This document shows positions 27,398 to 31,864 of a stretch of 37,583 nucleotides of DNA, piece after piece. A model generated the notes under the pieces. That model searched no databases. It was not told where the DNA came from and worked only from the letters and a program-made list of their open reading frames with translations. The stretch comes from Nitrospinaceae bacterium (GTDB lineage: Bacteria; Nitrospinota; Nitrospinia; Nitrospinales; VA-1). How positions within the stretch are numbered: the stretch's first letter is position 1; each line of letters starts with the position of its first letter. The position numbers and the translations under genes are program-made. The stretch covers positions 1-37,583 of the forward strand of contig JAJDAV010000053.1 in assembly GCA_029261695.1 (NCBI GenBank). The letters are read 5' to 3'.

Positions 27398-27664
27398 ATG
27401 AGTTTTGACTTTATGAAAGATTTTATGATGTTTGAAGACGAAGAGCGGTTTGCTGGACTTTGTGAACAAATTGAAGAAGCGATCAGGGATGTGGATGCAG
27501 GGGAAGGTAAAGTCTCTGAACTAGAAATCATGCAAGCTTTGGACTATGTTGGATTCAATTTGTTCCGCGATAACTGGGAAGAGTATAAAAAAATGGATAT
27601 GATGAATCGTGATCAATCCTATCCCTCCACGTTTAAAGGAAAAGATAAAAGATTTTTGCACTAA
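27398..27664 (+). CDS. Small acidic protein, unknown
   Basis: The 88-residue product is acidic and probably helical (FMMFEDEERFAGLCEQIEEA). A region rich in Asp, Glu and Gly follows (RDVDAGEGKVSELEIMQAL), which resembles a degenerate EF-hand, and the end is basic. A GGTGGAG site lies seven bases before the ATG. It may be the third gene of the aldolase operon (gap of 42 bases). Its stop overlaps the stop of the convergent beta-propeller gene by four bases. Confidence 0.65.
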   Translation: MSFDFMKDFMMFEDEERFAGLCEQIEEAIRDVDAGEGKVSELEIMQALDYVGFNLFRDNWEEYKKMDMMNRDQSYPSTFKGKDKRFLH

Positions 27665-29181
27665 TTCATTTTTTCCAAATCTTTTAGTCGTTGCATCATC
27701 GAGTGCATTTTTTTATCGAGAGTCGTTAGATGACGACCCACCTCACCAATTTCTTTTTTCTCCTGATCCATATAGACCAGCCGGCACTTTTCAATATGCT
27801 CGGTAATATGTTCAATCATGTCATGAATTTCCTCGCTTTCTGATGTTAGCTCATCTGCGGTTTCTTGAAACTGAATGACTTCATCTGTTGTTGTCTCGAC
27901 GGCCTTTCGTCTTTTAACCCATGCACGATAATAGGCAATTACAAATCCAGAAAAAGTCAAAAATATCAAACCTAAAGTGGCTATATCAACGAGTAAAATA
28001 AAGTAGGAACCGAAAAATCGACCGTTGTGAATTTCGGTAATTACTTTGACTACATCCATTTTCATCTCACTCGGCGAGAGTTGGTTGGCCGCGCCACTGA
28101 GGTTTATATTCTCCCAACCTCGCCCATCATCTTTTGAAATAAAGAGGCCGGATGTTGTTCCCGCCAAAATAGTATTTTTATTCAATGCGTAAATATGGGT
28201 AAGATCATGGACTATAGAAGTGCCTCCCTCCAAATCAAGAAAAAGAGAAGTGAGTGGAAACCATGTGTCTCCTCCATCTTTACTTCGAGATATTATTTCT
28301 CCATGCCCAAACAATAAATGTGAAAGATCTTTGGGGTATACGTAGCCTGCTGTAACGGGGAGATCTTTAAAAGTTGGATCGGTAACCCAGTTTCTACCGC
28401 CGTTAAAGGATTTCAAAAGTCCCTGTTGCGTGCTGGTATATAAAAACTCAGGTTCGGTGTTTAGTGAAAGAATTGAGATGGGGTTTTTGACAACTTCATT
28501 CCAGACATTTTCCCATGTCTCACCGCTGTCGTTACTGCGAATTACATTATTAACGGTGACTGCATAAATATGCCCAAGGGAGAATTCAATTTGTGTGACA
28601 GCATTCTCATTGTAAACAATGTCCCATGTTTCACCCGCATCTGAGCTTTTATATATGCCTCCCTTACTGGCAGCAAATAGGACTTCAGGATCTTCAGGGA
28701 GGATTGAAATATCTAGAATATGTGGGTGTGCCAGTCCTGCCGATTCATCGATCCACTCGCTCCAGGTTTCGCCTTCATCCTCTGATTTGAATATGCCTAG
28801 TTTCGTTCCAGCATAAACTGTATTGGGGAAATCAGGGTGTAGTGAGAGGACTTGAATATTCTGGTCGAAAAGGCCCTGATTGATCTGCTTCCAGGTAGTG
28901 CCGGAATCTTTTGATCGATAGATTCCAACATTTGTTCCAATAAAAATTGTTTGGCTTGCAGATGGTGATACCAGAAGCGCCTGAATATTTAGATTGGCTC
29001 TCTGGACATTGAAGTATTTAGCAGGAAGATATTGACCACTTATCTGGGCTTTTTGAATGCCAAATTTTTCCGGGTGCATCAATAGGATGCCAGTAACCGA
29101 AAGTATTAATATAAAGATTCCACATAAAATGCCGGCCCATTTGTGTAGGTTTCGGGATCTTTTAAATAAACGAATTTTCAA
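27661..29181 (-). CDS. Membrane-anchored beta-propeller with PepSY-like helix and shared cytoplasmic tail
   Basis: The protein has 506 residues and starts at TTG after AGGCGG. The N-terminus RNLHKWAGILCGIFILILS with TGILL is the first helix of PepSY-associated transmembrane proteins. A periplasmic beta-propeller follows with seven BNR/Ycf48-like turns: SKDSGTTW, SEDEGETW, SSDAGETW, SNDSGETW, SFNGGRNW, SKDGGDTW, SKDDGRGW. A second helix lies at about 385-415. The last 55 residues are a cytoplasmic tail (IHDMIEHITEHIEKC...) that matches the tail of the upstream iron permease. It lies eight bases after that gene, so co-expression under Fur is expected. Its role could be assembly, sensing or electron transfer for the permease. 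Nothing indicates a peptidase or sialidase active site. Confidence 0.75.
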   Translation of the reverse strand: MKIRLFKRSRNLHKWAGILCGIFILILSVTGILLMHPEKFGIQKAQISGQYLPAKYFNVQRANLNIQALLVSPSASQTIFIGTNVGIYRSKDSGTTWKQINQGLFDQNIQVLSLHPDFPNTVYAGTKLGIFKSEDEGETWSEWIDESAGLAHPHILDISILPEDPEVLFAASKGGIYKSSDAGETWDIVYNENAVTQIEFSLGHIYAVTVNNVIRSNDSGETWENVWNEVVKNPISILSLNTEPEFLYTSTQQGLLKSFNGGRNWVTDPTFKDLPVTAGYVYPKDLSHLLFGHGEIISRSKDGGDTWFPLTSLFLDLEGGTSIVHDLTHIYALNKNTILAGTTSGLFISKDDGRGWENINLSGAANQLSPSEMKMDVVKVITEIHNGRFFGSYFILLVDIATLGLIFLTFSGFVIAYYRAWVKRRKAVETTTDEVIQFQETADELTSESEEIHDMIEHITEHIEKCRLVYMDQEKKEIGEVGRHLTTLDKKMHSMMQRLKDLEKMN

Positions 29182-29189
29182 AATACCGC

Positions 29190-31322
29190 CTAATTTTGTT
29201 TTCCTTGAAATGCTTGTTTCGCCAGTTTTTCATATTCATCTTGAAGCTGGTTTTCGACATATTTGACATGGCCAAATAGCTCGTGAATTTTTACGTCAAT
29301 TTCTTTTAGATGTCCGGATAACTCTTGAAGATCCTGATCTGGCGTGTCTTTAAGTAAGACCTCGCATTTTTTTGCATGATGTGAAATGTGTTCGACGAGA
29401 TCGTGAACCTGGGTAATATTGCTTTGCAACTGGTTTGTTTCTTCTTTTAATTGGGTTGTGCCAAGCTCTGCTTTAATAATAAAGGTATAGACAAGAGCAA
29501 AAATAAAAGCTGCAAATAAGACGGCCTGACCAATAAAGGTCTCCCAGGTGGGATACATTCCCAGCCACGAAATACTTGGAAGAAAATCTACGGCAGTCAT
29601 TGATAACTGTTCACCCATTTGTAATTCATGAAGGCCTTTGCCCATGAAAGTAAAAGCCATGTAGTAAAGCAGGACACTGGTAAAACCAAAAAACCATTTA
29701 ATAGGGATTCGTAGTCCCAATTGGTTGATCAAATAAAAAACTCCGGCAAGTACCACACACCCTGTAAAAAAACCTGGGACAATACCTCCAGTTGACTCTC
29801 CTGCATATAAAAATAGGGCTTTGTAAAATAGGACCGTCTCAAACCCTTCTCTATAGACAGAAATGAAAGCCACTGCACTCAGAGTAAATGCATTACCTTT
29901 AGACAATGCGCCGCGCATTTTTTTGTTGATGTATTCTTGCCACCTTTTATTATCAATTTTCGAAACAAGCCAATAGCTGACTGAAAATAAAATTGCTACT
30001 GCAACGAGCATAATCCAACCTTCTAACACTTCTTGACTTGCCATGCTGAGGTGGAGAACTTCATGGATAATATAGGCAGTAATGAAACTTGCCAGGATTC
30101 CTGCAACGACTCCGATATGAATACTTTTTACACGTGAATCGTTTCTAGATTTTCGTAAGAAGGCTATTAAGGCGGCAATAATCAGTATTGCTTCAAAACC
30201 TTCACGCACGATGATAGAGAAGGACTGGATAAACATTCCTGAAAATCCAACCTTTCTTTTCAATAACTCCAGCCCTCTAGAAAGGTCTAATAGAATTTCA
30301 CCTTGGAGTTTTTCTACATGTTCCAGAGGAGCTCCACGTTTGATTTCGCCTCGATAACGACTGAAAGCAGATTCAAGTTTGACTCCAAGTGGCTTATCTT
30401 GCGTAATCAGGTTTGATTCTATTTTTTCGTAGGTGAGATAGGCATCAAAGGCGATTTCCGCGGCGTCCTCCACCTTTCCTTCTTTATATGTATTTAAACT
30501 TTTGCTTAAAAGGCCCCGAATTTCACCAACTACTTGATCAGCAATTTCAGACCCGGCTTCGCTATTTTCCATCGCGGCCAGTTCTTGGTTTACAGGGGGG
30601 AGTTGAACATCTGCATTGGAGAATGTACGTAGATAATAGGTGACATCCCATATCTGTGCTTCCGACAAAATTCCGGCCCAGGCCATCATTCCCGTATTAG
30701 CAATTCCAACACTAATTACCTCGAAATTATCGTAAGCAGTTGTGTTTTTATCACCTGTCAATTTAGGGTCGGATAAAACAGCAGGGGCGGGGTCGAATTG
30801 GGTTGCCATCGGTCCATCGCCATTGCCTGCAATGCCATGGCAAACGGAACAATTATTCTCAAATATTTTTTTCCCATTGGTCAATGAAACAGGCGTAATA
30901 GGAACTTTATTTATCTCAATACCAAAAGTAGACATTAAATTTGAGTTGGTGTTATTGACTTCATCCCAAACTTTTTGGGAATCTACTTTATTTTCGATCA
31001 TTTCCAAGAGGGTAGGGAAGTGCTGACTTATTAACTTTGCCGCGTCTCTATTTTTAATTTCTTTAGAAACTCTTGAAAATCTTTCTTCGGCTTGTTTTAA
31101 AAATATTTGGCTTTCTTCATACTCAGGAGCAATAACTATTTTCCCGTCTACTACTCCTTCTTCAAATTCCTTTGCCGCAATATTCAACATCATGACAATT
31201 TTTTTTACTTTGTCCTGTGTTTCTTGATTGAATGCTGTTGATGTTACTGGTTTCCCAAAAATGAAAAAGATGGATAATATTAATGTAAGGGAGATTTTGG
31301 GAGTAATGGGAGGAATTTGCAT
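29190..31322 (-). CDS. Cytochrome c-FTR1 iron permease fusion
   Basis: The protein has 710 residues from the ATG at 31322, preceded by AGGA; a TTG at 31358 is an unlikely start. A signal peptide (about 1-30) is followed by a helical region. A c-type cytochrome domain with haem motif C158-SVC-H162 ([18 protein letters not shown]) and a distal Met in TGMMAWAG comes next. A long periplasmic helical segment leads to an FTR1 domain of about seven transmembrane helices. Both iron-binding motifs are intact: REGFEA (373-378) and REGFET (491-496). A cytoplasmic His/Cys tail ([15 protein letters not shown]...) closes the protein. FTR1 permeases import Fe(III) produced by an oxidase; in cytochrome-fused forms electrons are thought to leave through the haem. 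The Fur box and promoter upstream support iron control. Confidence 0.9.
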
Positions 31323-31421
31323 AGTCGAAGATCCTAGTAGGGGCCGTTCAAGGAACAATTAACCTTAGAGGGCTGTCATTCATTGATTTATTGGTTTAAA
31401 TCGTAATCGCTGAAAGAATAT

Positions 31422-31441: not shown

Positions 31442-31470
31442 ATACTAGGCTAAAGCCTTTAAAATGTCAA
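31442..31470 (-). promoter_or_regulatory. Sigma70 promoter of the cytochrome c-FTR1/propeller operon
   Basis: On the minus strand a perfect TTGACA (-35, 31465-31470) is separated by 17 bases from TAGTAT (-10, 31442-31447). Transcription would start near 31435, inside the Fur box, leaving a leader of about 110 bases to the ATG at 31322. Confidence 0.7.
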
Positions 31471-31612
31471 TAAAGATAACATTTTAGAAGCATTTTTACT
31501 CAATATGGATGCAAGGTAGAAAGTACTAATTTGAAGGCGAAGTGAGCATCAAAATGAATAATAATTTAGGGAGGTAAATCTACTTGTTATATAAACAGGG
31601 AAAAAACAGCTA

Positions 31613-31864
31613 TTATCCTTCTAATTCTTTAAGTTTATTCTCCCATTGTGTAATCAATTCTCGAAAACGTTCAACATGCTGCTTTTCTTCTTCCATTAAA
31701 TCTGCATACATGCGACGGGTACCAATATCTTCGTCAGAATCTTGCGGAGTTTTTTCTAGTAATGTTTTGTAGTAATTAACAGAGTTTTCTTCGCTGACAA
31801 TCCCTTTTCGGAGAATATTTAAGCGTGCTTGCACAGACCCAATTGTTTCTTCATCAAATTCCAT
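31613..31864 (-). CDS. Half-ferritin-like two-helix protein
   Basis: The 83-residue protein is two amphipathic helices joined by an acidic loop. Helix 1 carries E25/E26 in VSEENSVNYY. Helix 2 carries EEEKQHVERF with E60-x-x-H63. This spacing is the diiron half-site of ferritin-like and rubrerythrin proteins, as in the short encapsulated ferritin-like proteins that dimerise to complete the site. No encapsulin gene or localisation tail is visible. The iron permease operon begins next to it on the same strand, but separate promoters drive the two. A rubrerythrin-like fragment or unrelated helical hairpin remains possible. Confidence 0.65.
   Translation of the reverse strand: MEFDEETIGSVQARLNILRKGIVSEENSVNYYKTLLEKTPQDSDEDIGTRRMYADLMEEEKQHVERFRELITQWENKLKELEG

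Follow-up and report, generated by a model that had tools for sequence, protein, structure and literature searches.

Why should an iron permease and the beta-propeller protein encoded beside it end in the same cytoplasmic tail? The question is raised by a contig of the Nitrospinaceae, phylum Nitrospinota (JAJDAV010000053.1), of which the whole stretch analysed, 37,583 nucleotides, is called the window here. On its reverse strand, to which the coordinates below refer unless stated otherwise, a cytochrome c-FTR1 iron permease fusion (29190-31358; 722 amino acids, counted from the first start codon) is followed, 8 nt downstream, by the gene for a PepSY_TM/sortilin-YCF48-type beta-propeller membrane protein of 506 amino acids (27661-29181), hereafter the propeller protein. 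Nitrospinota are abundant marine nitrite oxidisers, and their iron uptake bears on the marine nitrogen cycle (PMC10839748). Both the hand-over of iron from FTR1 to the cytoplasm and the electron source or sink of cytochrome c-FTR1 fusions are poorly known, and a ligand-bearing cytoplasmic module found on a permease as well as on a probable transmembrane reductase offers something concrete to mutate in approaching both questions. The tail described here is homologous in the two proteins, occurs on three kinds of carrier, conserves a pattern of His and Asp residues and sits on proteins paired in an operon; wherever FTR1 is tail-less, no propeller gene was found. It is probably a metal-binding contact module that connects iron uptake with redox chemistry in the membrane.

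The two tails are homologous

An earlier note, made from the letters of this DNA alone, had reported that the two tails align without a gap. Re-reading the reverse strand at 27694-27828 (propeller tail, IHDMIEHITEHIEKCRLVYMDQEKKEIGEVGRHLTTLDKKMHSMM) and at 29274-29408 (FTR1 tail) confirmed both the positions and the 15 identities in 45 residues exactly. The alignment has a BLOSUM62 score of 104, which none of 200,000 shuffles preserving the hydrophobic/polar class of each position attained (mean 30.0, sd 12.9, maximum 100). A single-sequence search with the FTR1 tail found the propeller tail in its own genome with E=4.5e-8, all other matches being at 0.3 or above, and in 60 related genomes it found propeller tails with E from 8.7e-10 to 0.009, the top match outside both families having E=0.014. 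Profile-profile alignment of FTR1 and propeller tails with hhalign gave a probability of 97.4% (E=1.1e-11). Additionally, a hidden Markov model built from FTR1 tails only recovered 36/36 propeller tails (E 2.8e-13 to 1.2e-4), and the top unrelated protein among the 1,064 searched stood at 0.14.

Chance or convergent similarity of unrelated coiled coils would draw on the charged, helical character of both tails and on the identity count, which is weaker evidence by itself since 15 matches were attained in 61 of the 200,000 shuffles. This explanation is rejected by the score, single-query, profile and cross-family tests alike, the third carrier described below has the same residue pattern, and we find it scarcely credible. 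These results indicate that the similarity is real homology, clearly better than that of random coiled coils; a generic coiled coil was ruled out by the gap between the cross-family E values and that of the top unrelated protein. The two hosts had been called otherwise unrelated, which is correct as regards their folds, although their families are both concerned with iron redox and transport.

Conserved residues and predicted fold

In both proteins the tail follows the last membrane helix, at residues 648-705 of the permease (29244-29417) and 449-503 of the propeller protein (27673-27837), and the positive-inside flanks and domain order suggest that it lies in the cytoplasm, in agreement with the earlier placement. 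With low to moderate confidence, AlphaFold2 predicts a two-helix hairpin for each, with loops at residues 671-674 (FTR1) and 472-477 (propeller). The potential ligands are H652, E656, H657, H661, C665, H683, D688 and H692 in the permease, and H453, E457, H458, H462, C466, H484, D489 and H493 in the propeller protein.

Conservation was counted over 86 distinct tails (46 FTR1, 36 propeller and 4 of the third type) in FTR1 numbering. Only I658, H661 and H683 are fully invariant across the three protein types (86/86), the codons of the two histidines lying at 29376-29378 and 29310-29312, respectively. His is found in 84 tails at position 652, in 84 at 657 and in 81 at 692, and Glu in 80 at 656. 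Position 688 is Asp in 82 tails and His in the remaining four, a swap between two metal-ligand residues that fits ligation better than packing. The motif Hx4[H/D]x3H is present on each of the two helices. Histidines are thus kept as strictly as metal ligands, which supports the earlier note in listing them as potential ligands, and the His/Asp pattern resembles that of a metal (or heme) site. The note had also counted Cys among the ligands; this holds for 80 of the 82 FTR1 and propeller tails (44/46 and 36/36) and for none of the four third-type tails, so that Cys is not essential. Placed from the loop position, H661 would face H683, H657 would face D688 and H652 would face H692. The FTR1 tail is on average 70% identical, compared with 72% for the FTR1 membrane domain; in the propeller protein the tail (56%) exceeds the propeller (40%) and the linker (38%).

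The tail matches no Pfam or NCBIfam family above cutoff, which bears out the suspicion that it is not a named domain, and its profile matches in the PDB are coiled coils, mostly covering part of helix B. Hemerythrin (PF01814) was not among the Pfam matches of either full protein at E up to 1, nor was the CZB zinc-binding domain (PF13682) among the matches at that threshold. The literature searched contained nothing on the tail or on the FTR1-propeller pair; the iron genes of the Nitrospinota comparative paper are in its supplement, outside that search. The libraries and papers searched thus contain no description of the tail, while both host proteins belong to known families. Its profile could join domain libraries and reveal further carriers.

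Carriers of the tail and their coupling

The tail is present in 52 of the 77 Nitrospinota genomes that served as the sample. Its third carrier, a 209-212-aa PepSY_TM protein without a propeller, occurs in four genomes of another Nitrospinota family (G072, G073, G075 and G076), in a cluster with genes for an outer-membrane-type protein and an FMN-binding protein (for example L113:6566-9219). It keeps the histidines H10, H33 and H82, and it scores slightly under the curated Pfam cutoffs. No FTR1 was found in these four genomes, where matches span the cytochrome c part only, and no relative of the third carrier was found on plasmids. The FMN-binding protein of the cluster bears a TGAT flavinylation-like motif. 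Another genome, G056, has a tailed FTR1 without cytochrome c near P19-type (PF10634) and Fur-family genes, with no PepSY/propeller carrier detected; the tail thus travels with iron genes.

Outside the phylum, the sample was small: about 30 FTR1 loci and the 26 Gemmatimonadota genomes in which the nearest FTR1 relatives from outside Nitrospinota occur. The tail was found only in Nitrospinota, and none of the 26 Gemmatimonadota genomes had it in this limited search, which was made without a positive control. In the Gemmatimonadota fusions inspected, the protein stops shortly after the last helix or finishes with a short coiled coil that is unrelated by profile to the Nitrospinota tail. In several (L216, L219, L223, L231, L236-L238 and L242) this coil is itself conserved, as SLER(M/I)xADLAE(I/L)RAEVER after a linker.

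The FTR1-propeller gene pair is conserved across the order. A propeller gene accompanies tailed FTR1 in 39 genomes and is absent from 7, whereas tail-less FTR1 has it in 0 and lacks it in 7 (Fisher 2.2e-5, without correction for descent; G006, where the contig ends, was excluded). All seven genomes with tail-less FTR1 (G002, G005, G044, G038, G037, G040 and G050) lack both the propeller gene and the gene for a ferritin-like protein discussed below. The tail-less permeases of G002 and G005, which share a genus, are 72-74% identical to that of the window. In G037 and G040, also of one genus (L158:6924-9303 and L160), cytochrome c and the tail-less FTR1 are separate, unfused open reading frames.

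Host proteins, neighbours and what the tail may do

The permease comprises an N-terminal helical domain, cytochrome c, a second helical domain, the FTR1 membrane domain and the tail (Pfam FTR1 3.8e-26, Cytochrom_C 1.3e-12). Its match to FTR1 (PF03239) exceeds the curated cutoff (92.5 bits against 25.3), and that to TIGR00145 (2.8e-34) is under its own. The cytochrome domain (residues 156-250; 30609-30893) carries CxxCH at C170/C173/H174, and the membrane domain (29451-30242) carries two REGxE motifs (REGFE, R385-E389 and R503-E507), both within membrane helices and invariant or nearly so across the FTR1 alignment. These motifs, the membrane domain, the periplasmic cytochrome c and the iron-related neighbours are common to FTR1/EfeU-type permeases, cytochrome c-FTR1 fusions included, to which the Nitrospinota permease adds the conserved His-rich cytoplasmic hairpin.

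The propeller protein matches Sortilin-Vps10 (1.6e-17), PepSY_TM (1.2e-10) and PepSY_TM_like_2 (2.8e-8) in Pfam, the latter two above their curated cutoffs (PF03929, 42.2 bits against 28.8; 34.5 against 27), and Foldseek returned YCF48 matches with TMt up to 0.72. Between its first membrane helix (residues 7-36; 29074-29163) and its second (376-420; 27922-28056) a periplasmic beta-propeller is inserted (60-372; 28066-29004). Invariant histidines lie at the cytoplasmic (H13) and periplasmic (H36) ends of the first helix and, on the periplasmic side of the second, within a TE(I/L)HxGR motif (H385); the membrane helices hold no second conserved His on the cytoplasmic side. FoxB, a PepSY_TM protein, binds two hemes via conserved His on both membrane faces (PMC13038864; PMC10979944), and PepSY-like gene clusters have been linked to iron reduction and flavinylated partners (PMC8238504). 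The propeller protein is probably a metal reductase of this transmembrane heme type. With FoxB/PepSY_TM ferric or ferrisiderophore reductases it shares invariant His at the membrane faces, termini inside and a periplasmic domain between helices, but it has two membrane helices only, a sortilin/YCF48-type propeller that replaces the PepSY domains, and a His-rich C-terminal tail. The third carrier adjoins FMN-binding and outer-membrane-type proteins, as in flavinylation-associated PepSY-like clusters (PMC8238504), from which it differs in its small size (209 aa) and its His-rich tail.

Directly upstream of the permease, an 83-aa ferritin-like protein of the rubrerythrin/encapsulated-ferritin type is encoded (31613-31864; Pfam Rubrerythrin 2.4e-5). 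The window protein scores 25.2 bits against a cutoff of 22.8, under which two homologues fall. It has the invariant pattern EE...YY...EExxH (E25/E26, E59/E60xxH63), and its best PDB match, P. furiosus 5n5e, is weak (E=0.0038). It is a possible cytoplasmic iron-handling partner. EncFtn half ferritins, of which it is a relative, are two-helix iron proteins with the metal site at the hairpin pairing, as would apply to the tail, but the two are non-homologous; kinship between the tail and the ferritin-like protein was ruled out (hhalign probability 0.25%). A further comparison is with hemerythrin, a four-helix bundle whose ligands have the spacings HxxxE, HxxxH and HxxxxD. The tail has these three in that order and a similar ligand set of five His, one Glu and one Asp, but it is predicted to form two helices rather than four, the motifs overlap on one helix and Pfam gives no match, so that the likeness is a lead on how the tail may work.

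We give about an even chance to the tail being a cytoplasmic metal-binding helical-hairpin module, the metal probably being iron, that is carried by the permease and the PepSY_TM reductase of one iron operon. On folding back, the three putative ligand layers would line the inter-helix face, and a pair of hairpins, both from FTR1, both from the PepSY protein or one from each, would come together as a four-helix bundle enclosing the metal. Such a bundle would self-pair where a single carrier exists and mix where both do, and a mixed bundle would hold permease and reductase side by side. This could link the exit of iron from the permease with electron transfer in the membrane, in which the permease may pass electrons to its cytochrome c and the reductase may carry electrons across the membrane. 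A fuller version, in which an undescribed di-metal or heme hairpin, interchangeable between Nitrospinota permeases and PepSY reductases, assembles an "oxidise, import, reduce" iron machine and passes on iron or electrons, is plausible yet rather unlikely.

Several observations weigh against this metal-hairpin reading. Tail pLDDT is moderate for FTR1, at about 67-76, and low for the propeller protein, at 43-60; the FTR1 membrane domain is itself poorly modelled by AlphaFold2, so that looking for similar structures with that model was uninformative; and the ligand layers derive from the loop position rather than from coordinates. Pairing of the two proteins is dispensable, as tailed FTR1 occurs with no propeller gene found in G013, G021, G028, G056, G060, G062 and G065; several of these are drafts, but most have an unbroken locus where the gene would be expected. 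In G023, a 444-aa propeller protein lacking the tail adjoins a tailed FTR1; propeller tails of this genus score weakly. On the FTR1 tree there are about four tail-state changes, giving three supported independent pairs, in which the propeller gene co-varies in 2.7 of 3 on average and never in the opposite direction (median p 0.25); with so few changes, the paired co-loss test cannot reach significance. Moreover, since the FTR1 tail and the propeller gene are adjacent, one contiguous deletion could remove both, and in G002, G005 and G044 the convergent gene that comes next is now close to the FTR1 stop. The earlier suggestion that the tails join the two proteins therefore gains from the lack of propeller genes with tail-less FTR1 (0/7) and loses from the seven propeller-less genomes with tailed FTR1. 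A module that solely joins these two proteins is contradicted by the third carrier, in a family lacking FTR1, and by the G023 propeller. Independent loss of a tail was seen once, in that propeller protein, FTR1 having lost its tail solely in genomes that lack the propeller gene too. Given the single-carrier genomes and G023, the tail cannot serve as a hetero-dock only.

Docking need not involve a metal. The tail might be a coiled-coil hairpin for homo- or heterotypic assembly in which His residues make buried polar contacts that set pairing specificity, as the predicted amphipathic hairpin, the coiled-coil matches in the PDB and the link between tail presence and the partner gene would allow. 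However, conservation of the five His, the Asp and the Glu is stricter than that of most hydrophobic core positions, the Asp/His exchange at 688 suits ligation over packing, and the same residues are retained in single-carrier genomes, which leads us to judge this explanation unlikely. Alternatively, the tail could dock a common cytoplasmic partner such as the ferritin-like protein, which would take iron at the permease exit. All 31 FTR1-bearing tree genomes with the ferritin-like gene have a tailed FTR1 and all seven tail-less ones lack the gene (Fisher 0.001, uncorrected for descent); it is unlinked in several genomes, so a single deletion does not explain the co-absence. Nevertheless, 15 tailed genomes and the third-carrier genomes do without this gene, and the tree shows no more than three to four independent changes of tail state; we consider such docking quite unlikely. 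Less likely still, and in our view improbable, is that the tail binds heme, with H661 and H683 as axial ligands, and, in the position of the NAD-binding domain of other PepSY proteins, lets electrons enter or leave the PepSY membrane hemes on the cytoplasmic side. To our knowledge, FTR1 needs no cytoplasmic heme in known systems, although it bears the same tail, and the conserved ligands exceed what a bis-His heme requires. The proposal accords with the hemes of PepSY_TM proteins, with the invariant His on facing helices, with the lone cytoplasmic-side H13 and with the NAD-binding domain encoded by some PepSY-like genes (PMC8238504). Among these readings we favour the metal-binding hairpin.

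Some minor observations concern the surroundings of these genes. No clear Fur-type palindrome was seen upstream of the permease, where a single 16-nt inverted repeat lies at 31452-31494. The ferritin-like gene of G006 is decaying, with several stops, and in G013 (L063:5626-5919) a Bfd-type [2Fe-2S] protein is encoded directly upstream of FTR1, at the position of the ferritin-like gene in relatives. In the single-contig genome G009 (L066:7169-9264 and L067:7505-8218) the propeller gene is in two pieces: the first remains behind FTR1, and the tail-bearing last piece is found about 1 Mb away, oriented the opposite way, by inversion or misassembly. On the forward strand of the window, a conserved 88-aa protein of unknown family (27398-27664) is encoded convergently with the propeller gene, overlapping its end by 4 nt, and the place of this gene is kept in many relatives, including those without the propeller gene.

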